Positions 314 to 26,189 of a stretch of 27,851 nucleotides of DNA are shown here, one piece after another. Source of the DNA: a virus; IMG/VR virus record IMGVR_UViG_3300006790_000091, positions 1 to 27,851 of that record, one strand, 5' to 3'. The stretch's first letter is position 1; every line of letters starts with the position of its first letter. Made by a program: the position numbers and the translations under genes. Below the pieces are notes generated by a model. That model was given only the letters and a program-made list of their open reading frames with translations, was not told the DNA's origin and did not search any database.

Positions 314-1051
314 ATGATGACAGGTAAAAGAACTAGTCTTAAAAGAGTACTAGAAAAAGTATATAGAGATTTCCACTTCAACACTGAGATTGCTTGGGGG
401 GATGTAATAGAGTGGTCTTCAGAAGCTATTAACATTCTTGGTGTTGGTGTTGGATTTGAAGATAAAATATCTAAAGAAATAGAACTAACTAATGGTAGGG
501 GCAAATTACCATGTGACCTTATGTACATTAAAATGGTAAGACAGTTTGATACACATAGAACTTTAGTTCGTTCTTCTGACCAGTTTCACTTATCTAATTG
601 GTATAGATGTGAAGATGAACAAGTATCTACCTGTGATGATTACTGCAGCCCTTTAGATACATATACAACTGAAGGAGATTATATCTTCACTAACCTTGAT
701 GATGAATCTTTAGAAATAGCTTATAAAGCCATACCTACTGATTCAGATGGTTTACCAATGATACCAGATGATGATAAGTATATTAGATATGTAGCTCATT
801 ATATTGCTGAGAAATTAGCATTTAAACTTGCTATGCAGAATAAATTACCTGCTGGTATGTTAGAAAAGATTGAACAAAAACTTGCTTTCTCTACAGGCTC
901 TGCTAAAATGAAAGCTGTTATTCCAGATACAGATGGTATGGAAGCTTGGAAAAATTCTTTCTTAAGATTAGTTCCTACTTTAAATTCACATAGTAATGGG
1001 TTTAAATATGACGCTCAACCACAACAACAAAGAAACCATAACTCCTATTAA
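314..1051 (+). CDS. P22 gp4-like connector / tail ring protein
   Basis: This 245-aa protein probably forms a ring below the portal that joins the capsid to the short tail. The clearest sign is the segment at residues 122-175: a strand-rich stretch leading into a Tyr-Lys-Ala-Ile-Pro-Thr-Asp...Gly-Leu-Pro-Met-Ile-Pro-Asp motif (about 137-152). A helix containing Tyr-Ile-Ala-Glu-Lys follows. This is the pattern of phage head-tail adaptors and of the crAss-like proteins compared with P22 tail accessory factor gp4. The N-terminal 30 residues look helical and the C-terminus is a Gln/Asn-rich tail. The start at 314 lies 2 nt after the upstream stop; an adjacent second ATG at 317 is equally possible. 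The gene ends 2 nt before the muzzle-type gene, as expected for translationally coupled tail genes. The family call is from memory of the motif, not from a search. Confidence 0.72.
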   Translation: MMTGKRTSLKRVLEKVYRDFHFNTEIAWGDVIEWSSEAINILGVGVGFEDKISKEIELTNGRGKLPCDLMYIKMVRQFDTHRTLVRSSDQFHLSNWYRCEDEQVSTCDDYCSPLDTYTTEGDYIFTNLDDESLEIAYKAIPTDSDGLPMIPDDDKYIRYVAHYIAEKLAFKLAMQNKLPAGMLEKIEQKLAFSTGSAKMKAVIPDTDGMEAWKNSFLRLVPTLNSHSNGFKYDAQPQQQRNHNSY

Positions 1052-9372: not shown

Positions 9373-12084
9373 ATGGCTTATAATAGATTCGTCAAACCAG
9401 GTAAATCTGGTTACATGTCACAATACGTTCCAACTAAACTTCCATTTAATTTATGGGAAAAAAACTTAGCACAAAAAGATGCTCAAGTTGATGAACTTAA
9501 AGCTTGGAAATCTGAAATGGACAAGATTCAAGCTATGGGTAGTGAAGAGGCGTATTTACCAGAAGTTATGTCTGAATACTTAGTTGGTGAAGATGGTCAA
9601 AAAATTAAACAAGAGTTTAGTTCTTTACAACTAGATGACTATAACCGTTCTAAAAGTAAATACAATGAGTTGCATTCTTTTATTGATGGCCTAACTCAAG
9701 ACGACTTTGTTAATTCTGTAGCTAGTGGTGAAATGACTGATATGATTCTTAAAGGTAATAAGATGTATCAGGAACTTCAATCTATTAATACTACTAATGA
9801 GAAAAGAGCAGAATGGTTAAAAAAATCTGGTGAAGTATTACAAGATAATCCACAAGTATTAACTACTCCTTGGGTTATGGGTCACTACAAAGTAATGTTA
9901 GAAGACTTTAAAAAGAACCCTAACTACGTACCAGATAGTATGCCTGTTATTGGTAAGTCTATTGATAGAGTTGGAAAACTAGTTACTATCATGGACAAGA
10001 AAAAAGATAGTGGCTACAGTAAAGAAGATCTCCAGCCTGGAGAACTATATACTAGAATATATGGTGGTAAAGGAGTTACAGCAGATGCTTATAAAAACTT
10101 TGCTACTAAAGTTCTTACTCCTAACTCTGAAATATATAAAGATATTGAAGCTGAAGCTGATTCATGGATTGCTACTAATGATTTAAATCCAGAAGATAGA
10201 CAAGCATTTATTGACATGCAAGTTAAATCTTTGATTGATACTGCTAAAGAATTAAAACATTGGGATAGTCATGAAAGTTATGGTAAAAAATCTCAATACA
10301 CCCATGAGAACGAATTAATTAATCAAGAAAACGGTTTCATTAGCTATGGAGCTGAAACTGATGAGTATAAAGAAAATACTTCTGTAAATGGTCAATTAGA
10401 GGAGCTAGACAAAGTTAATAAAGAATTAAATACTTTATATGAAGATTTAGCAAGATTTAACAGATTAAAAGCTCAAGGACAAAATATAACAGACATACCT
10501 TTATATAATCAAACTTTAGATAAAATAGAAATATTAGAAGGTAAAAAAAATAATTTAACTTATACCACAGAAACAGGTGTCTATGATGCTAAAAATAGAA
10601 TAAACTACGGGGATAGAAACATAGCAATTCAAAAAGAAGAATTACCTTATATGTTACTAGATCAACCAGAATTATCTAGAGATTTATTTACATATGATAA
10701 ATCTACTCAAAAGTGGCAAGTTAATCAAGACCAATTTAAGAAGATACAAAACTCTAAAGAATTTAATCCTTATAAAAGTATAATACTAGATTTACCAAAA
10801 ACTGCACAGGGACAGCAGTTTTTAAATAACTTTGAAGATATGAATGGATTATATCAAGTATATAATACATCTGGAGTATTTGGAACACCTAGACCTGGAG
10901 TAGATCCTAAAGGGGTGCATAACATTGGAGACTATAACCAAGCAAAAAAAGGTTTAATTTCTTCTGGTAAATTTACTTTAGAAGAAGTAGAAAATATGAA
11001 TAACAATGAAGTAGCAGAAACTTTTGTAAAATTATATAAACAAGCTGCTGGGTTTATGGCAGAAAAACATAAGACTAGCCAAAAAAGAAGTAAATTAAAT
11101 TACGACTTAGATAATGCTTTAAACACAGTTGCAGCTTTCAATCCCTACCAATATAGAGTAGACCCAGAGATAACTTATACTTTAGATAAAGGAGACTTAA
11201 ATGCTATATCTCAGACCCTTAATGTGGAAGGCTCTAAAGTAACCGGTCTAGATGGAGATATTTATACTTCACCAGAAATTTTAGAAAAGATAGCTATAAA
11301 ACTAAGAGACGAAAATTCTAGTATAGTATCATCAGTAACTGGAGATGGTAAAGCTGTCATTAAAAGCGGTCTTTCTAGATATGATTTGCTAACTGATTTA
11401 CAAGTACAAGAAATGTATGCTAAAGGGGTAGACAAAGGTACTATAAACGAAGATAAAGTTTCTATTCTTGATTTCAAACAACAGTTACAAGAAGAAAAAA
11501 CAGTTGGTAAAATAGTAATAGACTCTCCAGCTTACGGACATAGATTAAAAAATAAAGCTGTAAATTCAGTTATAAATAGTGACGCTTCTCCATCAGAAAA
11601 AAGTTCTGGACTAACTAGAATTAAAAATGATGACTTATTAGACAGATTAAGTGATGAGATAGCCCCAATGGGTCCAAGTAGTTTAGGAGCTAGTTACACA
11701 ACTAATAGTAATGGCATATATACCAATAGTGCTGGGCCTCTACTTCAGTATGATGGATATAATGATGCACACGTAATAAGTCCAGAGTTAAGAAACTATA
11801 CTAAAAATTTCAAGGGTAAGTATGATTTTAAATTAGATTACTTTACCCAAGATGGTAGACAAGGTGAATGGGAAGTAAGTCCTGTAAGTGCTACTCCAGT
11901 AGGTAATTATTACAACCAAGAAACAGGTGCTACAGAAGTATTGTTCTCTTGGGAATATTTTTTAGAAGGTGAAGACCAACCAAGATATGCTATAATTAAT
12001 GGCCCAAACGCTGGCAACTTTGTTGAATATGTAGAAGGAGCTTTAAGAGAAGACGAAATAAATAATATACAAAATAATCAATAA
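9373..12084 (+). CDS. Large virion (cargo-type) protein, family not named
   Basis: This 903-aa soluble protein lies between the glycine-motif protein and the giant RNA polymerase gene, where crAss-like phages keep proteins that travel in the capsid. The N-terminus (Asn-Arg-Phe-Val-Lys-Pro, then Gln-Tyr-Val-Pro-Thr-Lys-Leu-Pro-Phe-Asn-Leu-Trp at about 17-28) looks like a conserved opening I associate with structural proteins of Bacteroidota phages. Residues 30-160 are charged and helical. Residues about 337-400 carry heptad-like Leu/Ile spacing and probably a short coiled coil. The last 150 residues are more beta-like, with Trp, Tyr and Gly. There is no signal peptide, membrane segment or catalytic motif. 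It begins ATGGCT and ends 2 nt before the giant gene, so the two are probably translated from one message. I cannot assign a specific function. Confidence 0.62.
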   Translation: MAYNRFVKPGKSGYMSQYVPTKLPFNLWEKNLAQKDAQVDELKAWKSEMDKIQAMGSEEAYLPEVMSEYLVGEDGQKIKQEFSSLQLDDYNRSKSKYNELHSFIDGLTQDDFVNSVASGEMTDMILKGNKMYQELQSINTTNEKRAEWLKKSGEVLQDNPQVLTTPWVMGHYKVMLEDFKKNPNYVPDSMPVIGKSIDRVGKLVTIMDKKKDSGYSKEDLQPGELYTRIYGGKGVTADAYKNFATKVLTPNSEIYKDIEAEADSWIATNDLNPEDRQAFIDMQVKSLIDTAKELKHWDSHESYGKKSQYTHENELINQENGFISYGAETDEYKENTSVNGQLEELDKVNKELNTLYEDLARFNRLKAQGQNITDIPLYNQTLDKIEILEGKKNNLTYTTETGVYDAKNRINYGDRNIAIQKEELPYMLLDQPELSRDLFTYDKSTQKWQVNQDQFKKIQNSKEFNPYKSIILDLPKTAQGQQFLNNFEDMNGLYQVYNTSGVFGTPRPGVDPKGVHNIGDYNQAKKGLISSGKFTLEEVENMNNNEVAETFVKLYKQAAGFMAEKHKTSQKRSKLNYDLDNALNTVAAFNPYQYRVDPEITYTLDKGDLNAISQTLNVEGSKVTGLDGDIYTSPEILEKIAIKLRDENSSIVSSVTGDGKAVIKSGLSRYDLLTDLQVQEMYAKGVDKGTINEDKVSILDFKQQLQEEKTVGKIVIDSPAYGHRLKNKAVNSVINSDASPSEKSSGLTRIKNDDLLDRLSDEIAPMGPSSLGASYTTNSNGIYTNSAGPLLQYDGYNDAHVISPELRNYTKNFKGKYDFKLDYFTQDGRQGEWEVSPVSATPVGNYYNQETGATEVLFSWEYFLEGEDQPRYAIINGPNAGNFVEYVEGALREDEINNIQNNQ

Positions 12085-12086
12085 CT

Positions 12087-15000
12087 ATGGCTAAGAAACC
12101 AGAGTATAAACCACTTATTAAAGATGATTTATCTGATTTAAAAAGTAATGTAGCAAATAAACCATTTGACTATAAAGGTACTAAGGGAACTAAAAATTAT
12201 TCAATTAGTAGATCTAAACATCTTGGCGGTCAGACTATTGAAGATTTTAGAAAAAGTACTGGTACTGGGGTATCTATGCTTACTCCAGATAATTTATCTA
12301 ACAGATCTTATTTTGAAGAAGTAATTAATGATAAGGAGACACTTAGAAATGATATCAAAGCTTATGAACAATCTACTTGGGACAAAGTTGGTAACGGTAT
12401 AATGAAATTTGCTGGTAGAGCAGGTACTTCTATTATCGGTTCTACTATTGGTACCTTCTATGGTTTATATGCATGGGCGAGAGATGGTGAATTTAAATCA
12501 TTTTATGATAATGAATTTCAACATGGACTTGATGGTATTAACGATTATATTAGAGAAGAATTTCCACATTACTATACTTCAGACCCAGATGATTGGGAGA
12601 TTGGTAACTTCTGGTTTGATAAAGTATTTGATGGTTTGGGTTTCGCTACAGGTGCTGTAGCATCTGGTATGTTAGGTGGCGGGGCAGTTAATGTTTTAGG
12701 TAAAGTAGGTAAAGCTATGAAGCTAGGTAAACTAGCTAAATACAAAGCTGTTAAGAATCTTAAAAATCTACAGGCATCTGGTGCCTCTACTGCAGAAATT
12801 GGTATAGCTAGAGCTAATATTGATAAGGTAGGGGCATCTATGAGTAGACTATCTAAAGTGCCACATGATATTGCTGCATTAACAACTGGTGCTGTATATG
12901 AATCTGGTTTTGAAGGTAGAATGGTATTTAAAGATACTAAAGAAAGATTAATAGAACAATACAAAGCAGAAACAGGTTACGCCCCTACTGGTAAAGAACT
13001 AGAAGAAATTAATAAGATTGCTGGTGAATCAGCTAACGGTGTATTTGCTGCTAACATGGCTTTAGTTGGAGGTTCTACATATGCTCAATTTGGTAAGCAT
13101 TTAGGTTTAAGTTTTCCACAAATGAAGAACTTAATTAAACCTAGAATTGCTAAAGAAATAGTAGAGGAAGGTTCTAAAAAATATGTTAAGAAAGGTAGTA
13201 GTATAGTCCGAGGCACAGCAACTATTGCTAAAAAACCTTTTGTGGAATCTCAAGAAGAAATGCTTCAATCAGTATTTTCTAAAACTGGTGAAGAGTATGC
13301 AATGGCTAAATACAATAACAACGGTAAAGCTAGTGTCAGTGACTTAGCTAAAGCAGCAATTACTTCTGCTAAAAAAGTATATACATCTAAAGAAGGTTGG
13401 GAAGAAGGTTTGATTGGTGCTATCATTGGTTCTATTGGTGTTTATAGTGGAGCTAAGTCTGAAACAGGGGGTAGAGAATTACCGTTACCTGCTGTTATAA
13501 AATCTATTGGTGAAGCTAGAAATGAAGAACAACTTAGAAATATGATTGTAGATGGAATCAATAATAATGAGATTGCTTCTACTCTTACTTCTACTGCTGA
13601 ATACATGATTAGAGATGGTAAACTAGAAAGAACTAAAGACCTTGCTTTAGTTGAGGGAGACGAACATATCTACAATAATGCTAAAGATGAACAATTATTT
13701 AGCTACTTTGATTCTAGAATGAAAGCAGGTATGTTCGCATCTGTTCAAGAAGACATTCAAGGTTTAAGAAGTATGCCTGTAGAAAAGTACAAAGAACTTG
13801 TAGGTATTCCAGAAGAAGTAGAATTTACTGAAACAGATAAAAGTCAGTTAATTAATTCCTATGAAAGAAAGATTAAAGAGTATAAAGAAGCTCACGACTT
13901 TATAGAAAAGAATTATAAAGAATATGATGAAGACGCTAAAACTGCTTTAAGATATAATCTAGCTACACTTAAAAGAATTGAAGCTAGACAAAGAAATATT
14001 AGTGAACAAATAGATAAATTAACTGAAGGTTCTTTTGCTCAAGAAATTTCAACTCTTAGAAAAGCTGGTGCTAGACCAGGTGCAGATGAGTTCTTTGGAG
14101 AAGTAGATTCTAAAATCAAAACTATCCATAAAGAAAATCTAACTAATTTATATGATGATTATTTTAAACTAGAAGATAGAGCTAACGATATTTTAAAAGA
14201 ATATGATAAAACTGTTAGAGATCCTCAAGGTTTAGAAGAGAAGATTGAAAAAGCTGTTACTGAATTAGAGAAAGAGCTTAACAAAGATTCTGATGAAATT
14301 GAAAAGACTAATAGAAAAGAGAACCAAGTTAAACAGGGTATCGAAGATAACGAAACCAAGAAACAACAAAATAAATTAAAAGAAGCTGAACAAGCAGTTA
14401 TAGACCAAACTGAAGATGAAGCTTTTGAAGCTGCTTACAGAGATTTAGAAGAAAGAGAATCTAATGAGAAAATCATTAACGATAAGATTACTAATCTAAA
14501 AGACAGACAAAGTAAATTATTAAATGAACAAAGTGCATTAGACAATACTTTAAATTTTTTAGATGAAATACTTCAAACCAATTCAGAGTATTCTTCAAAA
14601 GAAGTAGAAGGGCTGTTGAAACAAATCAATACTCTTAAAGGTCTGTTATCTAATAACTTAGCTAAGACTAAAAGAGGTAAAGCTACAATTGCTACTATAG
14701 AAGAACTTGAAAATCAGATTAGAAATGAGTTCTCTTTAGGTCATGATATACTAAATAGAGTTAGAGAATTAAGAGAAGAGTCAATTCAGCTTGAAGCAAT
14801 TCTTAAAGATTTGAATAATCAAATTAGTTATTATCAAAATTTGATAGCTAATTCTAACATGACTACTCTTAGTCAAAACGAACTTAAAAAACAACTTAGA
14901 AAAGTTGAGTCTAAAGCTTCTACAGTTAGAAAGTTAATTGATGCTATTAAGAATGCTATATCTAAATCTTTAGCTTACTTAAATGAGTATATTGGTATAT

Positions 15001-18000
15001 GGAATAAAACATATAACAAACTAGAAAACTTTAAAGATAAGAACAACTTTAAACCTTTATCTCAATCTGAGCTTAAAGAAATCATAGAGAAAGATGATGT
15101 TCAATCTCAAGAATGGTTAAATAAATATACTGAACTAGCTCAAAGATATGCTGGACTCGAAGAACAAGTACTAGCACAAATGACTGACATTGAATTCTTA
15201 GAAGAAGTTAAAGCCAAAGAAGGTGATAGACTTAACGAACTTATTGAAGCTCTTAGAAAATATGATAACCAAGCTAGATACTTAAAAGAATTAATTGACA
15301 GTTATGATGCTGCAATTAAAGAATCACCTATATCTACACCACAAGGTACACCACAAGGACCAGCTCCTGTTAATACTAAGGGTACTCAGCAACATACAGA
15401 AGCTAGAGTCGGTAATGCAGAGGCTACAAAAACTCCAGCTAAAACTGCTGGTTTAGACCAAGAAACTATTAATGGTCTTGTAGCTGCTATTAATGATGCT
15501 AAAGACTTAACTGCACTTGCTAAAGTAGCTAACTTTATTAATGAACTTAAACAAGAAGAATCTCTTGATGAAATGCCAGATGCTATTAAAGAAGCATACC
15601 AGGCTAAAAGAGATGAACTTAAAAATAAACTTGTTCCTAAAACTAAAACTGAAGAAGACAGTGAGGTTGATGAACCCCATGAAATGAATGAAGCCCCTAG
15701 AGATTTTTCTGACGAAGAAGCTAAACAAGCTGCAGAGAAACTCAAAGATGCTAACCAAGGTGAACAAGATGGTACTGATAATAACGATCCTATTATTAGA
15801 GATAATGGTATAGTGTATCTTAGAAAAAGATTAGTTGATGCATGGAATGCTATTGCTGTTAGAACTAGAAACTTTGTTGAGAATGTAGCTAAAGGTGAAA
15901 TTAATGAATCAGAAGATGAGCTTTCTTCTCTTACTACTTTAGATATACTATCTTCTAAATTTATTAATAGAGGAGATAAAGTTCAAATTAGTTTACATTA
16001 TGGTGAATTATTTGACCCACAAGGTAATCCTTTAGAAATTAAAAATGAAGAAGGGCCAAATCAGATAATGAAGATAGAAAAAGATGGTCAACTAATTGGC
16101 TATCTTCATGACCTATCTTATATACGTCCAGACAGAGTAGTAGAAGCTACTGAACAATACCCAGATAACCTTGCTAGAAATAGAGAAGAACTAGAACAAA
16201 CTAGAAAAGATCTTTATAAAGCACTATCTACAAATAACAATACTCCTATAACTGCAGTTGTTGGGGGTAAAAGTGCTGGTACTATTAATATTAAAACTAA
16301 CCAGAAGTACGATACTCCACTATCTCAAGCTATTGAAAAAGATGATAGACCTAAAATATTGGTGGTTAAATCTGGAGGTCTTTACTTAGGTACCTCTAAT
16401 GTTGAAGACATGGATTTAGGAGAACAAATACATACTCCTTCTGCTGAATTTTTAGAAGAGTATGCAGGTATGACTTTAGTTGCATTACCTACAGCTAACG
16501 GTGGTTACTCTACTGTATTTGCTAGAAATCCTAAATTAAAAGACGTCAAGATTAATGATGAATCAGTTACTGACATCATTAAAGAAGTAGTCACTTCATA
16601 TCTTACTTCAGATTATGCTACTCTAGAACAATACGGTTTAGCAGATGCTGAAGCTAAAGAAATGTATGCAGAAGATATTGAACAGTATCTTAAGAACTTC
16701 ATGCATATGTCTTCAATTGTTTTTGTAGATGGTACTACAGACCATAATAATCACTTCTTTTACATTGGTAAAAATGATTATGGTCCAGTAATTCAATTCG
16801 TACATGAAGGTAGTCAGATTAATCTACACAAGAAATCTGATCTAAGTGTATTAGAAGCTAAATTAGATGGGGCACTTTTAAATACTAACTTAAATATGTT
16901 AAACCCTAACAGAGTTAATGAAGTTAGATTAAAAGATGGTACCAAAGTTAATTACGATACTTTTATCAAAGATAACTTAATGGTTAACTTCTTTGGTGAA
17001 GAAGTACATATGAAACATAATAACAAGAAAGAAATGGTATACGTTTCTAACCCTGTTATTACAATTAACAAACCTAATTTCATTGAAGAAAAAGCACCAG
17101 TAATTGAAGAGGGGAGTGAGTTCTTCTTTGAAGATGACAGTCCATTAGCTGATATAGAAAGAAGAAGACAAGAAGCTTTAGAAAACATTACACAATTTGA
17201 AGATGTTGATGGTAATGGTTTATTTAAAGATGGTTCTTGGGGTACTATTTTTGCTGAAGAAGATAGAATGACTATTACTGAAGCTATTGAATTAGGATTA
17301 GCTGAAACTGACACTAGAGAAGAATTAGTAGATAATATAAATGCTAAATATGATGCTGAAATAGCTGCTCTAGGTAAAGAAACTACTCCAGTTGAAGAAG
17401 TAGAAATAGCAGAAGCTAAAGAAAATATTTCTGAAGATTCCCCAGAAGCTACAGGACAACCATTAAGTAAAGAAGAAACTACCTTACCTCCTAAAAAAGA
17501 TAATCCTTTAGATAAACTAGAAGATTCTTTTTCTCCTAAAAGAGAGTATACTAATAGTGATTTAAGAAAAGGCCTTAATACTATTGTAGATGATAAAGGT
17601 GTTATCAATGCTTCTAAACATAACAGAGACATTACCAACACCATTACTGCAGTAATGGTAAGCTTACTTGAGAATAAACCAGGTATTACTGTAGGAGAAA
17701 TCATGTCTGTCATTGATGAAGCTTTTAATGATAAGTTTGATATATATAATTACTTCGGCTCTCAAACTTCTATTGATGAAGATCTAGCTACTGAAAGAAA
17801 TGCTTTATTAACAGTAGAAGATAATGCTGAAATGGCTAGACGTTACAAATTAGTTCTAGACAACATGCCTATATTTAAACAGTTAGCATTAGCTAAACTT
17901 AAAACTTATGGGTATTCAGTTAATGCTAACACAGGTTCTTTAGAATATGTTCAAGAAGATACTACTGATATTGAAGAAAAAATAGAAGCTGAATCAGAAG

Positions 18001-21000
18001 AAATGATTAGTGGAGGTGAAGCTGAAAATGCTAGAACTTCTTATGATGAGGGGGAAGTGCTTAGAAAAGATCCAGTTGAATCAATGTCAGCTAGAGTTAG
18101 ACATTTATTATCTACTATCAAAACTGGTGAGAAGAACTTCTTAAATAAACCTCAATACCATGATATGTATCATGTATATTATAGTATACTTGATATATTA
18201 GCTAATACCAATAATGAAACTCTTGATAAGAGTATTATTGAATTAGAAAGAAATATTAAATCTAAGCCATACCTACAAGAAGTAGTTAACATGCTTAGAA
18301 GTGAGAAGATTGAAATGCATGATAAACTAGAATTCCACTCTGTTATCAAAAAAGCATTACTTGTTCACGAAACTGTACTAGTAGAACCTAAAGAACAGGG
18401 TACTGATATTAAAGTAATTAACACTAATAGAAATACTTTAGCTCAACAAATAGCTGAAGATTGGGTAGTTAATCAAGAAGGTGTTTCTATGTGGAAAGAC
18501 CAAAATGGTATTAGCGTTCTTAATAAAGACTATATTAACACTACTCTTCAAGATAAATGGGTAGCTGTTATTGAAGCTGGTAGAAAAGATAAAGAATCTA
18601 GTGAGAAAACTAGATACGCTGTTAAAGCTTTACAGTCTTATCTTAAAGCTGTAGGTATTTACATGTCTGAAGAAGCTCTAATGTATTTAGAAGACAACCC
18701 AAGTTATCTAACAGGTAATCCTAATACACAGTTTGCTTCATTATTTAGTACAAAAAAGAGTGGTGTATTTAGTGAAATCAATAATAGATTAAAAGAAGCT
18801 ACTAAAGATACAGAAGAACATCCACTAGAAACAGAAGGGTACATTAAAAAGTTAGCTACTTTACAGGCAGAGTTCTCTGAAGATGTATCCACACACTCTT
18901 TCATTAACTCAGAGAAAAATAATATCTTCTCGTTTATCAATAGCTCATGGATGATTGAAAGATTATCTAGACTAAAACATAAAAGAAAAGGTATTAGAAA
19001 GAAGATGATTAACAGATTATTAGCTCTACCTTTTAGTAAACACTCTAACTGGTTAAAAGAGCTTGGTCCTAATGCTAACGAAAAGTTTAGAGATCATTTT
19101 AACATTACATTATTAGATACTCTTAAACAAGCTAAAGAAGATGGAGCTTCTTTCTCATCTCTATCTGAAAGAGAACAATTGGTTGCTCAGTTGAACTTGT
19201 TTGTAAATAATGAACAGGGTACTAAAGATCAGAAGATTAGTAAATTTATTGTAGCAAAAGCTGATAAACATCTATTACATGTTGTTACTGCTTTAAGACA
19301 TATGATGGATTCATCTAATGCTGAAATTAACAAAGGTGAATTTGGTACTAATGATAAGAATGCCTTATTAGATTTAGTTAAATCTGAATATTCTAGAATA
19401 CTAGATGCCCAAGAAAAAAGAAAGAATGGTATTGACTTTACGGATTTAGCATATAAGACTGATTCTGAAGGTAACATAACTCATGGATACAACCCTTTCC
19501 AGTTCTATTTTTTTGAGGGGCTTAACGATAAATCTAACAAACAAGTAGCTAAACTATATCACAACGGTGAACTTAAAACTTGGGAAGAACTTACTTCTTC
19601 TGGTTTAATTGATACTGTACTTTGGGAAGTAGTTAAAACTCAATTTAATAATGAAGCTGCTAAACTTAGAAAAGAGTTAATTAGTAAAAATATTATTATA
19701 CCTAAAGACCCAGATGTAGAAGACTCTCAAGATATGATTAGATCTGGTCTTAAATATAATAAGAGTGCTAACTATTTTGTAAGAGACTACTTATTAAATT
19801 ACATGATTGCTAATGTCAATTATGCACAAATCTTTCAAGGTGACCCTGCGGTAGGTTTTAAAAAATCTATTGATGGTACTTTTGCTAATTTGTTTAAACG
19901 TTTAGCTAAAGATATTGCTCCAGCTACTAGAGGAGGTAAACTTAAATTATCTGCTCTTAGAAAGTTAACAGGTGGTACTAACTATAACAAATATAACCAG
20001 ATTGTATTAAGAGATTCGTATGGCAACTCTCTTAACATACAAGAATTAATGGCAAAACAAATACCTGGTTATGAAGGTATGGACACAAGTGTTGATGCTC
20101 AAGAGGTTACTACTCTTGAAGAACACTTAAACATTATGTACCATTATGGTAAAATTAAAACTAAGCAATATTTAAATCTTTTAAAGAAAGCTCAAAAAGG
20201 CCAAGAATTAACGCAAGAAGAATTAGATATTGTTCTACAACCAATGAAACCAGTACACTCTGGTAACTATATTATGAATGAGTATGGTGTAGATATGCCT
20301 ATCTATATTAAATCATCTTCATTCCCACTAGTACCACAACTACTTGGTGAGAATAGTCCATGGGCACAGTTAGAAAAAACCATGCGTAAGAAAAATGTTC
20401 AACGTGCTGTATTCCAATCAGGTATAAAGCTAGGAGCATTTAAAATTATTGATGGTTGGAATAAGATGACTAACCCAAAAACTGAAGAGTTAATGGGTAC
20501 TACTTCTGAAGATGGTAAATTTACTCCATTCACTAACGGTACTTTTAATATTAAAGAAATAGAAGCACAAATAGATAACGGTGCTTTCATGACTTTAAAT
20601 AGAGATAACTTTGGTATTCAGCAAGATATGCCGTATGATCCTTTCAAAAGCAAAATTCTAGAAGGTTCTCAGTTAGTTAAACTTATCATGAATGGTCTTG
20701 ATACTTCTACACCATATGGTGCTAAAGTAAGAGATAGATTTAATGAATTACATAATGAGTTAACTGATATAGGTTTTGAAAACTTCTTAGATAAAATTGG
20801 TTTTGAAGAAGTAGGTGGTAAAATCTCTCCTAAAAATGGTTCATTAGAAAAGTTCAAGAATGTAATTATTCAAGAACTAATTACCAGAGGAGACTACAAT
20901 CAAAATGATTACCTAGCTTTAGAACTAAACAAAGAAGGTACAGATTTCTTAACACCACTTTGGGCTAATCCTAAATCTGCTAAGTTTGAAGCAGTACTTA

Positions 21001-24000
21001 ATTCACTGATTAGTAAGAATGTACTTAGACAAAAGATGCCTGGTAAGTCTTACATTCTAGCTACTGAAGAAGGTTGGACACATAAAGATGTTACTATTGA
21101 AAAGGTACCTAAATCTAAACTTAAAGGTAGTGCTTATAAAGCTGGTGAAGGTTTAAAACCTCAAAGAACTGGTTATAAAAACGAATCTACTGGTCAAGTT
21201 ATGGAAGTAGATAATTTCAATAAACTTGTCGAAGAAGGTACTATTAAAGCTACTGATTTTGTTGAAGTGGTACTACCAGCTCAAATATTAATTGCTAAAC
21301 CTAAGAAAAAAGTTATAATAGAAGATGCTGATGGTAATAGAATCTCTATGGCTACATATAACAGATTAAGCGAGATTGAAAAATCTGACTATACTGTTAA
21401 TACATTAAGATTTGAAAACCCTCAAATGGTTGGTTATCGTATTCCAACACAGGATTTGAACTCAATGTCTGCTATGGAAGTAGTTGGTTATCTACCAGAT
21501 TACATGGGAGATATTATAATTGCTCCAAAAGATTTCACTGTTCAGATGGGATCTGACTTTGACATTGATAAATTATATGTTCATAGATGGAATGAATCTG
21601 ATAGTGGTAAACCTATAGATGAGACTACTGCTAAAAGAGCTTGGGACTATCAGAAAAAGAGTTCTGATAATTCTGAAATGGCTGCTAAACTTGAAGCTGC
21701 AGGTTTAGAGATTCCAGAAGATACTGAAAGCTTTGAAGAATTTAAAAAGAAATTCCAAAAAGAAGTTATTCAAAATAAAATAATGGATGAGTATTGGAAA
21801 ATTCTTACTGATCCTTCTAACTTATCTGATATTCTTAAACCATTAGACTTTGGTAATCTACCAGAGGTAGTAAAAACAATTAACAGAGAACAAGAATCTG
21901 AAGAACGGGCACATATATTATCACCTACTAGACAAATAGAAAACTATCAAAATGGTAATGCTGGTAAATTTGGTGTGGCTGCTACTTCACTTGTATCTAC
22001 CTTTAATGCAACTGCTCAATCTATTACTGAAGAATTAGAGTTAATGGAAGAAGTTGCTATATATGAGAAAGGTGTGTATAAAGGTAGTAAAATTGTACCT
22101 AGATTCTTCAACTTTAATATTGATGGAGAACCTAAACCATTATCTAAAATTAATAATACCAAAGAAACTGCTAATGGTAAAACCACTAAAGCTGCAGTTA
22201 TCTCTGCGTATCAGTCTGCTGCTGTAGATAATATTAATGAGCTACTTATTAACACGCTAAACTATAATAAGCATACACATGATGCATTTACTGCATTGGC
22301 TATGTTAGGTTTAGATGAAGACTACATTGGTTATTTATTAGCTCAACCTATCATTAAAAGATTTGTTAAGCTAAATGAAAATGCCAAAGATATGTTTGCA
22401 GTTCAAGGTGAATCAGCTTACACTGAACTATTTGATGAGTTAAGTGATATGATTGGTAATCCAGAGGTTGAAAGAGCTATCTTTACTGGGGGGTGGAATG
22501 ATGCCTACTCTACTGAAGATTTAAAAAACTCTTTAAATAGTAAAGATCCAATTTATAGTTTAAAAATCTTAGTTAAGTTCTATAAACTATCTAATGCTGG
22601 TAGAGATATTAATAGTTTAATTAGAGCTACTCAACCAGCTACTTCTGGTATTGGTAAGAACAGAATCAATTCTGAACTTAAAGAACTTAGTGCAAACAGT
22701 GCTATTACTTCTAAAGCTATTAGAAATGCTGACGCTATCTTTGGTACTGTAGAAGTAAAAGAATCTGAACCAGGTAGGAACCAAGATTTACAAGTTAATG
22801 TAGAAGGTACTACTATTATTGGTAAGGGTGTTCAAGTAATGAAGAAAGCTAATGATATATATGGCAATTACTTCCATATCAATAAGTTAGGTACTAAGTT
22901 AGCTAACATGATTAAGTTCCTTAAGAATGATACTGAACTTAACTTTACTGAAAAACAATACGAAGATTTTATAAGTTTTGCTAAATCTTATTTATTCTCT
23001 GCTGAATTACAAATGTATGGGAATGAAGAAGCTGTTGCTTATAGAGAAAGACTACTATTTGGTAACGAATCTTTAGCTCACAGATGGAATAAATTTAAAA
23101 AAGATATTCCTAAACACTGGTTAGCTAAAAGAATTAGAGTTAGAATTACATTAGGTAGTAAAAAACCTAACACAATCCGTTACAATGCTGCTCAGTCTGA
23201 AAGAAGTGATGACCTTGAAAACGTTATTACATTAATTGAAATGTTAGAAAGTAATGACCCTACTCAAATAGAGTTAGCTGAAGATACTATTGCGTATACT
23301 TATTTAAGAGGAGGTAAACAAGATGCTCTATCACTACTTAAATTTATACCTAATAGATACTTACAAGTAACTAAAATGGGAGCAGATATTACTGAGAAGT
23401 TTAAAGAAACTTATACTGGAGAAGATCTTTCAGCTTCACTATTAGAACAATATCTACAACATAAACCATTTTATGCCTATAACCCTACTACTCAATTTAT
23501 TAATGGAGATTTCCTTAAACGATTAGAAGTAGAAGTTAGACCTAATGGTAAGGCCACTATTCAGTATATGGGTAGAACTTATAAAATGTTTGATACTGAA
23601 GCAGAGGCTGAATTAACTTTAGCTAGACTTCAACAAATAGAGAAAGGTACTATAGAAATTCAAAAATCAGAATTAGAATCTGAATACATACCTAAATATA
23701 CATATGGTAAGTATAAAGGTAAAATGACCTTGTATAAACTAGATAATAATTCAGCTAAGAGCGATGCTGTAGTTTATAGACCTATGGACAGACTTGGTTC
23801 TTCTGAGTTTATGGAAACTCAATATCGTCAACTTAATGCTACTAGTTCAATTCTAGAAAATCAAGTTGATCCAGAAGATACTGCAGAAACACAAGAGCCT
23901 ACAAAAGTAGATCTTCCACCATCATCTAACAGACAAAATGTTAGAGATAACGTGCAAAACAATGTTAAAGATACTAGTTCTTTAGCTACTAAGTTTAAAT

Positions 24001-26189
24001 TGCCCCAAGGTAGTCAATCTGCTACAAGAGTTGATTCAGTTATAGATGATATAATTGATTCTATGGCAAACCCTCAACTTAAAAATGTACTTAAATTTTT
24101 AAAACCATTACTAGGAACCACTACAATTAAAGTAGGTAGACCTAGTAGAGATGATGTTGATGGTGAGTATAGTTCAACATATGATGTTATTATTATAGAT
24201 AATAAGATAACTTCTGAAGAAACTTTTGCTAGAGTATTAGTACATGAAATGGTACATGCTGTATTAGATAAAGCTATTGTTTCACCTACTGCAGCTCAAC
24301 AAAAACATGTTGATGCTCTTAAAAACTTATTCAAAGAATTTAAAAGTCAGTATAAAGGTAACATACCTAATGCTAAATTAAACCTTAAAGAGTTTGTAGC
24401 TGAAATCATGACTGATGCTGATTTTCAAGTAGAGCTTGATAACATGAGGTTCGGTAAGGACAAAACATTCTTACAGAGATTCTTAGAAATAGTTAGTGAA
24501 ATTTTAAATTCAGCTAAGTCTTTATTAGCTGCCGATGTTAATACTGTAGGTGTAACAGCTCAAGCTATGTCTGAAATTGTCAGACTTACTAATGCTGGTA
24601 ATCAAACTACTGTTAGTACTGATACTGCAGCTATAATCAAAGCTTCTGAAAATGTAGAAATTTCTGAAAGTATAGAAACAGAAGAAACAGTTACCCTAGA
24701 TGACATACCTACCGAAGATGATGTTGTAGTTAATGAAGACCATATGATATTTAAATCAAGAGACACTAAGTTAGACTACACTGAAGATCAAAAAATAGCT
24801 TTAGGTAAGTTAGGTAGATTCATTGATTCTAAAGATAGCGGTAACTTCTTCTTATTAGCTGGATATGCTGGTACTGGTAAAACTACATTAGTAGAAAACA
24901 TCTTAAAGTATGGTGAAACTACTAAAAATGATGTCAGAATTACTGCTACTACCAATAATGCTGTAGATGTACTTAAAAACAAGTTTAAAGGAAGTAAGAA
25001 AAAATTCTCTACTATACATAAACTTATTGGTCTAGTACCTTCAGAAGTTGAGGGGAAAGAAGATCAAATCTATGACAAGATTCCTAACGGTTCTATAGTG
25101 GTTATTGATGAAGCTTCTATGTTAGATAAGAAACTATTAGATTTAGTAGTAATGCAAGCTAAAGTTGGTAATGCTAAAGTTATATTTGTAGGAGATTCTT
25201 TCCAACTAGAACCTGTTGGAGAAGACCCTAAATTATTTAGCGAATTTGATTTTGGAGATAATAAATACGAATTATCTGAAGTTAAAAGACAAGATGGTGA
25301 CATCTTAAAAGTAGCTACACATATTAGAACTGTTAAGAGAAACGAACTCTTAGATATCAATTCTAAAGAGTTTGCTGTAGTTGAACAGGCTCAAATCAAA
25401 GAAGAGATAGATAACGACATTGCAAATAATAATGACTTTGTTGTTCTAGTTACTACTAATAAAGATAAGATTAAAAAGAACAACTACATTAGAGCTAAGA
25501 AGTATGGTAAAGAGTTAGCTGGAGAACATAAGATTCTTAAAGGAGAAAAGTTAATGTTTATCTCTACCAATGTTTCTTCTAATGGTAGTCTTTATACCTT
25601 ACCTAATAATGTAGAAATTGAAAAAGTAATACCTTTTACATATAAAGAGAAATCTTATGAAGGTCATTTAGTATCTATACCAGGTACTAAAAAGAAAATC
25701 TTTGTTGTACCAAATTACGAAGGTCCAAGTTTATACGGTAGCCAGTTAACTAAAATAGAAGAACTTGCCCCTATTATGCAAAAGAAGACAAGCAATTTTG
25801 GTACTGAATACTATAAGTGGAATAAAGAGATTGACATTGCTAACTATGGTTATGCTAGTACTATTCATAAATCTCAAGGTAATGAATGGGACAACGTATA
25901 TATAACTGCTAATTATATGGCACAAGGTTGGGATGCAGCTAGAATGATTTATACTGCTGTTACTAGAGGTAAAAATAAAGTTAGAGTACAAAATACTTCA
26001 GTTATCAATATAAAAGAAGACTTAAGTATGTATGAAGAGAATTTACCAGATCCAACTCCAGAAATGTTATCTCCTTCACCATTTATTAGTAAATCTCCGA
26101 AGAGGGGTATTAAACCAGCTAAAAATGGTATCTTTACAGAAATGAGTAACGAAGATTTAGAAGAATTTAAAAAACAATGTAATGGCTAA
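12087..26189 (+). CDS. Giant virion RNA polymerase fused to a zincin peptidase and an SF1 helicase
   Basis: This is a single open frame of 4700 codons, starting ATGGCTAAG 2 nt after the previous stop. Parts in order: glycine-rich hydrophobic segments (109-131, 183-210, 439-455) in an otherwise helical N-terminal 500 residues; charged coiled coil (about 560-1075); Thr-Pro-Gln-Gly linker (1084-1091); uncharacterised acidic modules to about 2100; single-chain RNA polymerase core (about 2150-3720); zincin-like metallopeptidase (about 3990-4190); acidic linker; SF1 helicase (about 4225-4652). In crAss-like phages the two-barrel polymerase is packaged in the virion and transcribes early genes after ejection; phi14:2 gp66 is the characterised example. 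The frame has no internal stop or visible frameshift. At 4700 aa it is far longer than gp66 (roughly 2200 aa, from memory), mainly because of the N- and C-terminal additions. The polymerase call is strong; the joint packaging of helicase and peptidase is inferred from the fusion. Confidence 0.9.
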   Translation: MAKKPEYKPLIKDDLSDLKSNVANKPFDYKGTKGTKNYSISRSKHLGGQTIEDFRKSTGTGVSMLTPDNLSNRSYFEEVINDKETLRNDIKAYEQSTWDKVGNGIMKFAGRAGTSIIGSTIGTFYGLYAWARDGEFKSFYDNEFQHGLDGINDYIREEFPHYYTSDPDDWEIGNFWFDKVFDGLGFATGAVASGMLGGGAVNVLGKVGKAMKLGKLAKYKAVKNLKNLQASGASTAEIGIARANIDKVGASMSRLSKVPHDIAALTTGAVYESGFEGRMVFKDTKERLIEQYKAETGYAPTGKELEEINKIAGESANGVFAANMALVGGSTYAQFGKHLGLSFPQMKNLIKPRIAKEIVEEGSKKYVKKGSSIVRGTATIAKKPFVESQEEMLQSVFSKTGEEYAMAKYNNNGKASVSDLAKAAITSAKKVYTSKEGWEEGLIGAIIGSIGVYSGAKSETGGRELPLPAVIKSIGEARNEEQLRNMIVDGINNNEIASTLTSTAEYMIRDGKLERTKDLALVEGDEHIYNNAKDEQLFSYFDSRMKAGMFASVQEDIQGLRSMPVEKYKELVGIPEEVEFTETDKSQLINSYERKIKEYKEAHDFIEKNYKEYDEDAKTALRYNLATLKRIEARQRNISEQIDKLTEGSFAQEISTLRKAGARPGADEFFGEVDSKIKTIHKENLTNLYDDYFKLEDRANDILKEYDKTVRDPQGLEEKIEKAVTELEKELNKDSDEIEKTNRKENQVKQGIEDNETKKQQNKLKEAEQAVIDQTEDEAFEAAYRDLEERESNEKIINDKITNLKDRQSKLLNEQSALDNTLNFLDEILQTNSEYSSKEVEGLLKQINTLKGLLSNNLAKTKRGKATIATIEELENQIRNEFSLGHDILNRVRELREESIQLEAILKDLNNQISYYQNLIANSNMTTLSQNELKKQLRKVESKASTVRKLIDAIKNAISKSLAYLNEYIGIWNKTYNKLENFKDKNNFKPLSQSELKEIIEKDDVQSQEWLNKYTELAQRYAGLEEQVLAQMTDIEFLEEVKAKEGDRLNELIEALRKYDNQARYLKELIDSYDAAIKESPISTPQGTPQGPAPVNTKGTQQHTEARVGNAEATKTPAKTAGLDQETINGLVAAINDAKDLTALAKVANFINELKQEESLDEMPDAIKEAYQAKRDELKNKLVPKTKTEEDSEVDEPHEMNEAPRDFSDEEAKQAAEKLKDANQGEQDGTDNNDPIIRDNGIVYLRKRLVDAWNAIAVRTRNFVENVAKGEINESEDELSSLTTLDILSSKFINRGDKVQISLHYGELFDPQGNPLEIKNEEGPNQIMKIEKDGQLIGYLHDLSYIRPDRVVEATEQYPDNLARNREELEQTRKDLYKALSTNNNTPITAVVGGKSAGTINIKTNQKYDTPLSQAIEKDDRPKILVVKSGGLYLGTSNVEDMDLGEQIHTPSAEFLEEYAGMTLVALPTANGGYSTVFARNPKLKDVKINDESVTDIIKEVVTSYLTSDYATLEQYGLADAEAKEMYAEDIEQYLKNFMHMSSIVFVDGTTDHNNHFFYIGKNDYGPVIQFVHEGSQINLHKKSDLSVLEAKLDGALLNTNLNMLNPNRVNEVRLKDGTKVNYDTFIKDNLMVNFFGEEVHMKHNNKKEMVYVSNPVITINKPNFIEEKAPVIEEGSEFFFEDDSPLADIERRRQEALENITQFEDVDGNGLFKDGSWGTIFAEEDRMTITEAIELGLAETDTREELVDNINAKYDAEIAALGKETTPVEEVEIAEAKENISEDSPEATGQPLSKEETTLPPKKDNPLDKLEDSFSPKREYTNSDLRKGLNTIVDDKGVINASKHNRDITNTITAVMVSLLENKPGITVGEIMSVIDEAFNDKFDIYNYFGSQTSIDEDLATERNALLTVEDNAEMARRYKLVLDNMPIFKQLALAKLKTYGYSVNANTGSLEYVQEDTTDIEEKIEAESEEMISGGEAENARTSYDEGEVLRKDPVESMSARVRHLLSTIKTGEKNFLNKPQYHDMYHVYYSILDILANTNNETLDKSIIELERNIKSKPYLQEVVNMLRSEKIEMHDKLEFHSVIKKALLVHETVLVEPKEQGTDIKVINTNRNTLAQQIAEDWVVNQEGVSMWKDQNGISVLNKDYINTTLQDKWVAVIEAGRKDKESSEKTRYAVKALQSYLKAVGIYMSEEALMYLEDNPSYLTGNPNTQFASLFSTKKSGVFSEINNRLKEATKDTEEHPLETEGYIKKLATLQAEFSEDVSTHSFINSEKNNIFSFINSSWMIERLSRLKHKRKGIRKKMINRLLALPFSKHSNWLKELGPNANEKFRDHFNITLLDTLKQAKEDGASFSSLSEREQLVAQLNLFVNNEQGTKDQKISKFIVAKADKHLLHVVTALRHMMDSSNAEINKGEFGTNDKNALLDLVKSEYSRILDAQEKRKNGIDFTDLAYKTDSEGNITHGYNPFQFYFFEGLNDKSNKQVAKLYHNGELKTWEELTSSGLIDTVLWEVVKTQFNNEAAKLRKELISKNIIIPKDPDVEDSQDMIRSGLKYNKSANYFVRDYLLNYMIANVNYAQIFQGDPAVGFKKSIDGTFANLFKRLAKDIAPATRGGKLKLSALRKLTGGTNYNKYNQIVLRDSYGNSLNIQELMAKQIPGYEGMDTSVDAQEVTTLEEHLNIMYHYGKIKTKQYLNLLKKAQKGQELTQEELDIVLQPMKPVHSGNYIMNEYGVDMPIYIKSSSFPLVPQLLGENSPWAQLEKTMRKKNVQRAVFQSGIKLGAFKIIDGWNKMTNPKTEELMGTTSEDGKFTPFTNGTFNIKEIEAQIDNGAFMTLNRDNFGIQQDMPYDPFKSKILEGSQLVKLIMNGLDTSTPYGAKVRDRFNELHNELTDIGFENFLDKIGFEEVGGKISPKNGSLEKFKNVIIQELITRGDYNQNDYLALELNKEGTDFLTPLWANPKSAKFEAVLNSLISKNVLRQKMPGKSYILATEEGWTHKDVTIEKVPKSKLKGSAYKAGEGLKPQRTGYKNESTGQVMEVDNFNKLVEEGTIKATDFVEVVLPAQILIAKPKKKVIIEDADGNRISMATYNRLSEIEKSDYTVNTLRFENPQMVGYRIPTQDLNSMSAMEVVGYLPDYMGDIIIAPKDFTVQMGSDFDIDKLYVHRWNESDSGKPIDETTAKRAWDYQKKSSDNSEMAAKLEAAGLEIPEDTESFEEFKKKFQKEVIQNKIMDEYWKILTDPSNLSDILKPLDFGNLPEVVKTINREQESEERAHILSPTRQIENYQNGNAGKFGVAATSLVSTFNATAQSITEELELMEEVAIYEKGVYKGSKIVPRFFNFNIDGEPKPLSKINNTKETANGKTTKAAVISAYQSAAVDNINELLINTLNYNKHTHDAFTALAMLGLDEDYIGYLLAQPIIKRFVKLNENAKDMFAVQGESAYTELFDELSDMIGNPEVERAIFTGGWNDAYSTEDLKNSLNSKDPIYSLKILVKFYKLSNAGRDINSLIRATQPATSGIGKNRINSELKELSANSAITSKAIRNADAIFGTVEVKESEPGRNQDLQVNVEGTTIIGKGVQVMKKANDIYGNYFHINKLGTKLANMIKFLKNDTELNFTEKQYEDFISFAKSYLFSAELQMYGNEEAVAYRERLLFGNESLAHRWNKFKKDIPKHWLAKRIRVRITLGSKKPNTIRYNAAQSERSDDLENVITLIEMLESNDPTQIELAEDTIAYTYLRGGKQDALSLLKFIPNRYLQVTKMGADITEKFKETYTGEDLSASLLEQYLQHKPFYAYNPTTQFINGDFLKRLEVEVRPNGKATIQYMGRTYKMFDTEAEAELTLARLQQIEKGTIEIQKSELESEYIPKYTYGKYKGKMTLYKLDNNSAKSDAVVYRPMDRLGSSEFMETQYRQLNATSSILENQVDPEDTAETQEPTKVDLPPSSNRQNVRDNVQNNVKDTSSLATKFKLPQGSQSATRVDSVIDDIIDSMANPQLKNVLKFLKPLLGTTTIKVGRPSRDDVDGEYSSTYDVIIIDNKITSEETFARVLVHEMVHAVLDKAIVSPTAAQQKHVDALKNLFKEFKSQYKGNIPNAKLNLKEFVAEIMTDADFQVELDNMRFGKDKTFLQRFLEIVSEILNSAKSLLAADVNTVGVTAQAMSEIVRLTNAGNQTTVSTDTAAIIKASENVEISESIETEETVTLDDIPTEDDVVVNEDHMIFKSRDTKLDYTEDQKIALGKLGRFIDSKDSGNFFLLAGYAGTGKTTLVENILKYGETTKNDVRITATTNNAVDVLKNKFKGSKKKFSTIHKLIGLVPSEVEGKEDQIYDKIPNGSIVVIDEASMLDKKLLDLVVMQAKVGNAKVIFVGDSFQLEPVGEDPKLFSEFDFGDNKYELSEVKRQDGDILKVATHIRTVKRNELLDINSKEFAVVEQAQIKEEIDNDIANNNDFVVLVTTNKDKIKKNNYIRAKKYGKELAGEHKILKGEKLMFISTNVSSNGSLYTLPNNVEIEKVIPFTYKEKSYEGHLVSIPGTKKKIFVVPNYEGPSLYGSQLTKIEELAPIMQKKTSNFGTEYYKWNKEIDIANYGYASTIHKSQGNEWDNVYITANYMAQGWDAARMIYTAVTRGKNKVRVQNTSVINIKEDLSMYEENLPDPTPEMLSPSPFISKSPKRGIKPAKNGIFTEMSNEDLEEFKKQCNG
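12411..13455 (+). other. N-terminal glycine-rich hydrophobic segments of the giant protein
   Basis: Three stretches in the first 460 residues are rich in Gly, Ala, Ile and Val with small-residue spacing. They are about 109-131 (ending in Phe-Tyr-Gly-Leu-Tyr-Ala-Trp), 183-205 (Gly-Leu-Gly-Phe-Ala-Thr-Gly-Ala-Val, then four more glycines) and 439-455 (Gly-Leu-Ile-Gly-Ala-Ile-Ile-Gly-Ser-Ile-Gly-Val). The spacing resembles glycine-zipper or membrane-active helices. Basic clusters follow the second stretch. Such segments are unexpected in a cytoplasmic polymerase. They would fit a domain that contacts or crosses the cell envelope during ejection, but could also be buried helices of a soluble fold. 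Confidence 0.45.
13764..15311 (+). other. Long coiled-coil region of the giant protein
   Basis: Residues about 560-1075 are almost entirely Glu, Lys, Asp, Asn, Gln, Leu and Ile with heptad-like hydrophobic spacing and almost no Pro or Gly. This predicts long helices, probably coiled coil. It separates the N-terminal hydrophobic region from the enzymatic parts and ends at a Pro/Gln/Gly linker. A spacer or oligomerisation role is likely. The boundaries are by eye. Confidence 0.6.
15336..15359 (+). repeat. Two-unit 12-bp tandem repeat encoding Thr-Pro-Gln-Gly
   Basis: The 12-bp unit ACACCACAAGGT is followed at once by ACACCACAAGGA, encoding Thr-Pro-Gln-Gly twice (residues 1084-1091), then Pro-Ala-Pro. 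This flexible linker marks the end of the coiled coil and the start of the next module in the giant protein. The near-identical codons suggest a recent duplication. Confidence 0.8.
18550..23250 (+). other. Two-barrel RNA polymerase core of the giant protein
   Basis: This stretch carries both catalytic double-psi barrels of a crAss-like virion RNA polymerase in one chain. The beta-like barrel is marked by Tyr-Ile-Lys-Ser-Ser-Ser-Phe-Pro-Leu (K2742, 20310-20312) and Ser-Gly-Ile-Lys-Leu-Gly (K2781, 20427-20429), the likely counterparts of the two conserved lysines. The beta'-like barrel has Arg-Ile-Pro-Thr-Gln at 3118-3122 and Met-Gly-Ser-Asp-Phe-Asp-Ile-Asp at 3154-3161. D3157, D3159 and D3161 should bind the catalytic metal. 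Downstream, Asn-Gly-Asn-Ala-Gly-Lys-Phe-Gly-Val (3289-3297) precedes a long helix that may act as the bridge helix. All key residues are present, so activity is expected. The outer limits are approximate. Confidence 0.85.
21555..21569 (+). other. Catalytic DFDID motif of the RNA polymerase
   Basis: These 15 bases encode Asp-Phe-Asp-Ile-Asp (3157-3161), the metal-binding signature of crAss-like virion RNA polymerases. It corresponds to the DxDxD/DxDGD motif of two-barrel RNA polymerases generally. Gly-Ser just before it and Lys-Leu-Tyr just after it agree with the family pattern as I remember it. Confidence 0.88.
24054..24656 (+). other. Zincin-like metallopeptidase domain of the giant protein
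   Basis: Residues about 3990-4190 contain Val-Leu-Val-His-Glu-Met-Val-His-Ala, an HExxH zinc site at 4053-4057 (24243-24257) on a predicted helix. It is preceded by an edge strand (Asp-Val-Ile-Ile-Ile-Asp), as in zincin folds. About 45 residues on, Lys-Glu-Phe-Val-Ala-Glu offers E4102 or E4106 as the third, gluzincin-type ligand. The domain lies directly between polymerase and helicase. It could cut the giant polypeptide to separate its enzymes, cut another virion or host protein, or be structural; the sequence does not decide. Zincin-like domains have been described in crAss-like giant proteins, as I recall. Confidence 0.75.
24759..26042 (+). other. SF1 (Dda/RecD-type) helicase domain of the giant protein
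   Basis: The C-terminal 430 or so residues hold a full set of superfamily 1B helicase motifs. These are the Q-like Tyr-Thr-Glu-Asp-Gln-Lys; Walker A Gly-Tyr-Ala-Gly-Thr-Gly-Lys-Thr (4259-4266); Thr-Ala-Thr-Thr-Asn-Asn-Ala (Ia) and Ser-Thr-Ile-His-Lys-Leu-Ile-Gly (Ib). Next come Asp-Glu-Ala-Ser (II, 4341-4344), Gly-Asp-Ser-Phe-Gln-Leu-Glu-Pro-Val (III, 4369-4377) and the Val-Lys-Arg-Gln arginine R4401 (IV). The last two are Thr-Ile-His-Lys-Ser-Gln-Gly-Asn-Glu-Trp (V, 4592-4601) and Tyr-Thr-Ala-Val-Thr-Arg-Gly (VI, R4627). A beta-rich insert between IV and V (about 4485-4550) resembles the SH3-like pin domain of Dda/RecD2. By family it should move 5'-to-3' on single-stranded DNA using ATP. A tail of about 48 residues follows. 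Confidence 0.88.
26182..26189 (+). promoter_or_regulatory. 8-nt stop/start overlap coupling the two giant genes
   Basis: The start of the second giant (ATG at 26182-26184) lies inside the last codons of the first, whose TAA is at 26187-26189; the shared bases are ATGGCTAA. There is no Shine-Dalgarno sequence upstream, so initiation probably depends on ribosomes finishing the first giant (termination-reinitiation). The overlap supports this ATG over later ones, together with the family-like Met-Ala-Lys-Ile-Cys-Pro-Asn-Lys-Asn opening. Confidence 0.65.

Follow-up and report, generated by a model that had tools for sequence, protein, structure and literature searches.

It is not settled how an ejected virion RNA polymerase (vRNAP) opens duplex DNA when infection begins; the vRNAP of N4 is active in vitro on denatured templates only. 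A polymerase that carries its own helicase allows a direct test, and such an arrangement is found in the window (the whole stretch of 27,851 nucleotides analyzed here), a 27.8-kb fragment of a crAss-like phage genome.

Domain organization of the giant ORF

The 4700-aa ORF contains no internal stop codon and is real. Judged from domain matches and structure prediction, it is a crAss-type vRNAP to which a complete SF1B helicase and a zincin-like segment are attached, arranged in the order RNAP body, HExxH site, and helicase (Table 1). Both sequence features by which crAss-type vRNAPs are recognized are present, i.e., the DxDxD site and similarity to the phi14:2 RNAP (PDB 6VR4), and the Cys-containing tail that is common to the ORFs of this type follows the helicase. 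By analogy with crAss001 and phi14:2, the protein would be carried in the virion and function as an RNAP. As in polyvalent proteins, several unrelated enzymatic domains (RNAP and helicase) are combined in one chain; the zincin is assigned by its HExxH motif only.

Table 1. Features of the window and their positions
Feature	Position	Strand	Remarks
Crassvirus tail ring protein 1	314..1051	+	
Crassvirus muzzle protein	1054..5748	+	11 cysteines
Cargo protein 1-like ORF	5796..9344	+	1182 aa; 0 cysteine
Cargo-block ORF	9373..12084	+	903 aa; 0 cysteine; without family match
Giant ORF	12087..26189	+	4700 aa; N-terminal region, crAss-type virion RNAP body, HExxH segment, helicase, Cys-containing tail
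RNAP body (profile A1, residues 2667-3430)	20085..22376	+	Matches PDB 6VR4, E 2.3e-45
RNAP catalytic DxDxD site GSDFDIDKL (residues 3155-3163)	21549..21575	+	
Zincin-like HExxH site HEMVH (residues 4053-4057)	24243..24257	+	Equivalent position in L004 and Fpv3
SF1B helicase, Dda/RecD2 type (residues 4217-4652)	24735..26042	+	Domain matches, AF2 model, structure comparison
Helicase motif I (Walker A) GYAGTGKTT (residues 4259-4267)	24861..24887	+	
Helicase motif II VIDEASM (residues 4339-4345)	25101..25121	+	
Helicase motif III FVGDSFQLEPV (residues 4367-4377)	25185..25217	+	
Helicase motif V GYASTIHKSQGNEWDNVYI (residues 4588-4606)	25848..25904	+	Includes TIHKSQG
Helicase motif VI RMIYTAVTRGKNK (residues 4619-4631)	25941..25979	+	Includes YTAVTRG, R4627
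C-terminal tail FKKQCNG	26166..26186	+	Holds Cys 4698

Residues 4216-4634 match the Dda-like helicase family PHROG 325 (E = 3e-75), and the helicase region also matches Pfam AAA_30 (5.5e-24) and UvrD_C_2 (7.9e-14), both of which exceed the cut-off. The closest solved chains found by phmmer are 9kwf, T4 Dda (3upu; 5e-15), and RecD2 (3e1s). All of the SF1 motifs (I-VI) were found, from Walker A at residue 4259 to Arg4627, where the first-pass annotation had placed them; their key residues are unchanged across 39 aligned relatives, and every aligned fused copy retains the catalytic ones. The AF2 model built from 11 sequences was poor (pLDDT = 57.8), whereas that built from the 39-sequence alignment reached a pLDDT of 80.5 and a pTM of 0.78. 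The latter model resembles DSH9 (Z-score = 32.3), T4 Dda (Z-score = 29.9, 386 residues), and RecD2 (Z-score = 28.7), with Z-scores of about 21 or less against other SF1 helicases (Pif1, TraI, and UvrD). The β-rich insert that had been noted from the sequence follows motif IV in the model, and the motifs, whose failure to form a helicase fold had been named as grounds for refutation, do assemble into one. The claim of a complete Dda/RecD-type helicase at the C-terminus is thus borne out by the PHROG and Pfam matches, the motifs, and the predicted fold, and the reading of the domain as a relic, which that annotation had already doubted, is rejected on the basis of the complete motifs, the confident fold, and the recurrence of the architecture.

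Cys4698, the third residue from the end, is the sole cysteine of the protein. Fused helicases contain 1 cysteine in 8809 residues versus 141 in 11665 residues of free helicases, a comparison that comprises only 3 independent contrasts, with counts taken over related sequences. A lack of cysteine has been proposed as a requirement for the ejection of N4-like vRNAPs (PMC3715699; PMC3915230), and the RNAP-associated proteins of crAss001 were detected in virions (PMC10172136). Since the fused helicases share this lack, the fusion is very probably carried inside the virion. N4 gp50-gp52 fit the cysteine-poor pattern of ejected proteins; the absence of cysteine is not exclusive to such proteins, as the N4 coat protein also has none. 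The proposed fusion to a virion-type polymerase agrees with the 6VR4 match and gains added support from the scarcity of cysteine and the vRNAP-type Cys tail. Loss of cysteine may serve as a simple sequence test for phage protein domains that are ejected into cells.

Recurrence and origin of the fusion

In about 16 further crAss-like records, among them the complete genomes cr50_1 and cr118_1, the RNAP ORF likewise ends in a helicase; an assembly artefact is ruled out by the same architecture in independent contigs and complete GenBank genomes. One N4-like contig (L180) encodes a related helicase within a vRNAP of unrelated type. A scan of the genome contigs with the window helicase alone detected no relative. 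In no searched record do fused and free full-length helicases occur together, and those relatives with the fused form that are complete or long yielded no free copy, an absence that is also compatible with a replication role. Neither form was found in many crAss-like phages, phi14:2 and crAss001 among them, so the need for the helicase is not universal.

A single clade of fused helicases is rejected (AU p = 6e-6), and one ancient fusion is ruled out by the AU tests; by these phylogenies, crAss-like relatives acquired the helicase tail several separate times. In the larger tree, the window helicase groups with the fused copy of L145 (support 97/98), and the pair sits in a supported set (100/97) of mainly non-crAss helicases. 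The main clades of free crAss helicases, with which the window copy shares no clade, fall elsewhere, and its derivation from a crAss replication helicase is not supported. The first-pass annotation had placed free Dda-like helicases in replication modules, which holds for the free crAss copies in Intestiviridae (these adjoin UDG and DNA polymerase genes). It had also asked whether the fused copy came from a free one, and the tree speaks against that simple expectation for the crAss replication helicases. In the first tree, a sister relationship of the window and L004 helicases was borderline (p = 0.057), and the two belong to different supported groups in the larger one. The join of the window copy with LUZ7 in the first tree was flagged as a long-branch join and vanished once L145 was added. 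The very long branch of L060 led to its exclusion from the second tree.

Possible roles of the fused helicase

The separate gains of the helicase tail suggest that unwinding of DNA is recurrently needed by the injected polymerase, and repeated independent fusion argues for a function. The best explanation overall, which on sequence and model falls just short of an even chance, is an ejected motor that opens the incoming DNA for the polymerase. The whole RNAP-helicase chain would be a cargo of the phage head and leave it together with the DNA, probably partly unfolded. Inside the cell, the helicase would refold and travel along the entering genome, in the 5'-3' direction expected for SF1B, and the attached polymerase would receive opened template from it; early transcription would consequently rely less on gyrase or other factors of the host, and the movement of the helicase may also help to pull DNA in. 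That supplying opened template to the attached polymerase is the specific job of the helicase is quite possible, although we would not call it probable. The wider proposition that crAss two-barrel and N4 single-subunit vRNAPs repeatedly capture Dda-type helicases, shed cysteines for ejection, and use them as a DNA-opening motor in the first round of transcription is tentative, and we would sooner doubt than assert it.

The fused copy might instead stand in for an absent free Dda-like helicase, either when replication starts or in repair, with the polymerase as its delivery route only. The separation of fused and free full-length copies in the searched records and the position of free copies beside replication genes are in keeping with this role, which is nevertheless unlikely; the window copy lies outside the free crAss helicase groups, linkage to RNAP recurs, and the job must be dispensable, since many crAss-like phages have neither form. 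SF1B helicases are translocases, which would suit a genome-pulling motor acting on the incoming DNA once the pressure is spent. Co-ejection with DNA, as judged by composition, is consistent with such a motor, and DNA pulling by transcription has been discussed for N4 (PMC12633501). Pulling is improbable all the same, as translocation by SF1B enzymes requires a single-stranded track, whereas the genome enters as duplex, and the sequence bears no sign of it.

Cleavage by the HExxH segment could detach the helicase from the chain, which counts against the DNA-opening motor. A helicase released by cleavage, e.g., by this adjoining zincin-like segment, would act free or in counter-defence like polyvalent injected proteins, among which zincin processing and helicase domains are recurring themes (PMC5512222). 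Although the site lies just upstream of the helicase, the likelihood of release is slight, as an HExxH motif is absent from the stretch joining RNAP and helicase in cr50_1 and cr118_1, and the Cys tail follows the helicase in the chain. Cutting may still take place after ejection. A decaying, functionless domain, in favor of which only sequence divergence speaks, is highly improbable given the catalytic motif residues kept in all aligned fused copies, the confident fold, and the repeated separate fusion.

Comparison with known systems

QOR58058.1 of cr50_1 and QOR58373.1 of cr118_1 have the same architecture as the window ORF and are annotated as "DNA helicase" after the C-terminal domain, with no mention of a polymerase; no paper discussing either protein was found, and none describing a vRNAP-helicase fusion was found in the open-licence literature. 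The phi14:2 vRNAP (PDB 6VR4) and the RNAP-associated cargo proteins of crAss001 share the DxDxD site and the gene block with the window ORF but not its helicase. The N4-type vRNAP resembles the window protein in being giant, cysteine-free, and ejected, and L180, with its related helicase, is of the N4 class; however, the N4 type is a single-subunit RNAP unrelated to the crAss type, and to our knowledge N4 gp50 has no fused helicase domain. Polyvalent injected proteins likewise carry many activities per injected chain, zincin and helicase domains among them, but in the parts of the source used here (Iyer 2017, PMC5512222) their helicases are SWI2/SNF2 or UvrD-like, and the crAss RNAP-Dda combination does not appear. 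T4 Dda and RecD2 of D. radiodurans share the fold and motifs of the window helicase; they are free proteins, whereas the window helicase is the cysteine-free C-terminal part of a virion-type RNAP.

Domain composition of the giant, probable virion protein

The window record is a 27,851-base fragment of a phage genome, and statements on it refer to that fragment. It belongs to a crAss-like phage, with matches to crassvirus families for its tail ring 1 and muzzle proteins. Downstream of the muzzle gene come a cargo 1-like ORF, an ORF of 903 aa, and then the giant ORF. In most relatives, the position downstream of the giant ORF is occupied by an ORF of 1200-2100 aa. Pfam gave no convincing match for the window piece of this downstream ORF or its counterparts in L003 and L004 (loci from compared records).

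Coordinates of the ORFs and segments discussed
Feature	Locus	Positions	Remark
Giant ORF	window	12087-26189	4700 aa
C-terminal Cys tail	window	26166-26186	
ORF downstream of giant ORF	window	26182-27849	8-base overlap with giant ORF end; continues past window edge
Helicase frame	L063	12903-17504	1534 aa
Helicase-vRNAP frame	L180	3484-12600	
Helicase-vRNAP frame, full	L225	5538-17243	

The profile of the RNA polymerase (RNAP) body, made from the window, L003, L004, and Flavobacterium phage Fpv3, matches the solved virion RNAP of phi14:2 (6VR4) with an E value of 2.3e-45, and the RNAP site DFDID is at residue 3157 of the window protein. An HExxH site lies between the RNAP and the helicase, at a place common to L004 and Fpv3. 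Residues 4216-4634 match PHROG 325, "Dda-like helicase" (E 3e-75), as well as Pfam AAA_30 and UvrD_C_2, both well over the cut-offs. The AlphaFold2 model of this domain, which was built from 39 aligned relatives (pLDDT 80.5, pTM 0.78), is similar to T4 Dda (Z 29.9 over 386 residues; Foldseek E 1e-22) and to RecD2 (Z 28.7). The first-pass annotation had described a complete Dda/RecD-type helicase at the C-terminus of a virion polymerase; the family matches, the motif positions, which were correct in the window protein, and the predicted fold all agree and confirm this observation. The domain is thus complete and is a predicted helicase.

Recurrence and origins of the fusion

The RNAP profile scan gave 80 loci, in which the helicase is downstream of the RNAP in the same ORF in L004, L036, L048, L053, L060, L067, L069, L091, and L095, and L068 has a partial helicase match. 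The helicase profile scan added fused copies in L145, L156, L157, L183, and L186. The complete GenBank genomes cr50_1 and cr118_1 (Suoliviridae) also carry a helicase on the RNAP protein; GenBank names this whole protein of 4.8-4.9 thousand residues "DNA helicase" or "exonuclease V" because the name was taken from the C-terminal domain. In L063, the helicase frame overlaps, and is downstream of, the end of a 3883-aa RNAP frame, which is either a frameshift (programmed or a sequencing error) or a split gene. In the 2021 crAss survey, an SF1 helicase is listed with the conserved proteins and multidomain transcription proteins, but its text does not mention an RNAP-helicase fusion (PMC7886860).

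Among 25 phage records, 50 IMG/VR records, and 6 more, full-length matches to PHROG 325 occur either within the giant frame of the RNAP or in a free-standing frame of approximately 420-560 aa, and no record has both, a pattern weakened by fragmentary records. Long or complete fused records also have no free copy (cr50_1, cr118_1, G015, G025, G031, G043, and the L145, L183, and L186 records). Free copies occur in Intestiviridae, Crevaviridae, and Fpv1-like phages, where most of them have genes for DNA polymerase and UDG nearby. In the records compared, neither a fused nor a free helicase is present in Steigviridae (among them crAss001 and phi14:2) or in several Suoliviridae.

Close RNAP relatives differ in that the helicase is present in L004 and absent from L003, and the fused label changes at least 10 times on the RNAP tree, which is a quick tree on which some records without the helicase may be incomplete. 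Such counts alone cannot distinguish helicase gain from loss. In the helicase trees, the fused copies do not form one clade, and a single fused clade was ruled out by AU tests (p 0.00096 and 6e-6). An origin of the window copy from a crAss replication helicase was not borne out; the copy is instead sister to fused L145 (97/98), inside a supported set whose other members are mainly non-crAss helicases. Another supported set contains L004, L048, L053, L091, L095, and L157, while the helicases of cr50_1, cr118_1, L036, L063, L069, L156, and L186 group with free copies of Intestiviridae. As judged from these trees, the helicases came from different sources, which implies that RNAP ORFs gained one more than once.

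Cysteine content and the C-terminal cysteine

The window protein has 1 cysteine in 4700 residues, at position 4698; there are 4 in ring 1 and 11 in the muzzle protein, and cysteine is absent from both cargo ORFs. Fused helicase domains have 1 cysteine in 8809 residues (n=16), versus 141 in 11665 for free copies (n=25) and 126 in 8731 for other phage helicases (n=20), with a Fisher p of 1.7e-33 when kinship is ignored; when pairing takes relatedness into account, only 3 contrasts are independent, and all of them point the same way. The ejected N4 proteins gp50, gp51, and gp52 have no cysteine, and it has been proposed that a vRNAP without cysteine is able to pass the tail and periplasm (PMC3715699; PMC3915230). 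The N4 major coat protein and gp57 likewise have none, and low cysteine content is therefore not exclusive to ejected proteins. By this measure of sequence composition, the fused helicases resemble ejected proteins, whereas the free copies do not.

A cysteine occurs in the last four residues of 63 of 78 closed RNAP ORFs, with or without the helicase; the proportion is 5 of 60 among the ORFs immediately downstream and 7 of 114 among other ORFs. In loci L003-L111, these RNAP ORFs are otherwise nearly cysteine-free. In L053, L057, L064, and L100, two consecutive ORFs together encode the RNAP, and both halves end in the Cys tail. As a guess, this residue may serve as a tag for packaging or ejection; we found no paper on it.

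Possible role and a helicase on an N4-type vRNAP

A helicase tethered to the RNAP would open the entering duplex for the polymerase, and such template opening would account for the acquisition of helicases by RNAP chains in particular. The helicase could alternatively act in replication start-up, genome pulling, or counter-defence. The interpretation in the first-pass annotation is partly supported, and the recurrence of the fusion together with the composition signature makes helicase function testable.

A related arrangement, provisional because a single contig shows it (L180, 29.5 kb), is a 3902-aa frame in which a complete Dda-like helicase (approximately 810-1300) immediately precedes a vRNAP region of N4 type. 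After codon 1 of its open frame, this protein has no cysteine. The helicase is sister to the fused helicase of L004 (100/98; 32% identity), and the vRNAP region matches PHROG 2206 (E 6e-223) and N4 gp50 (E 5e-36).
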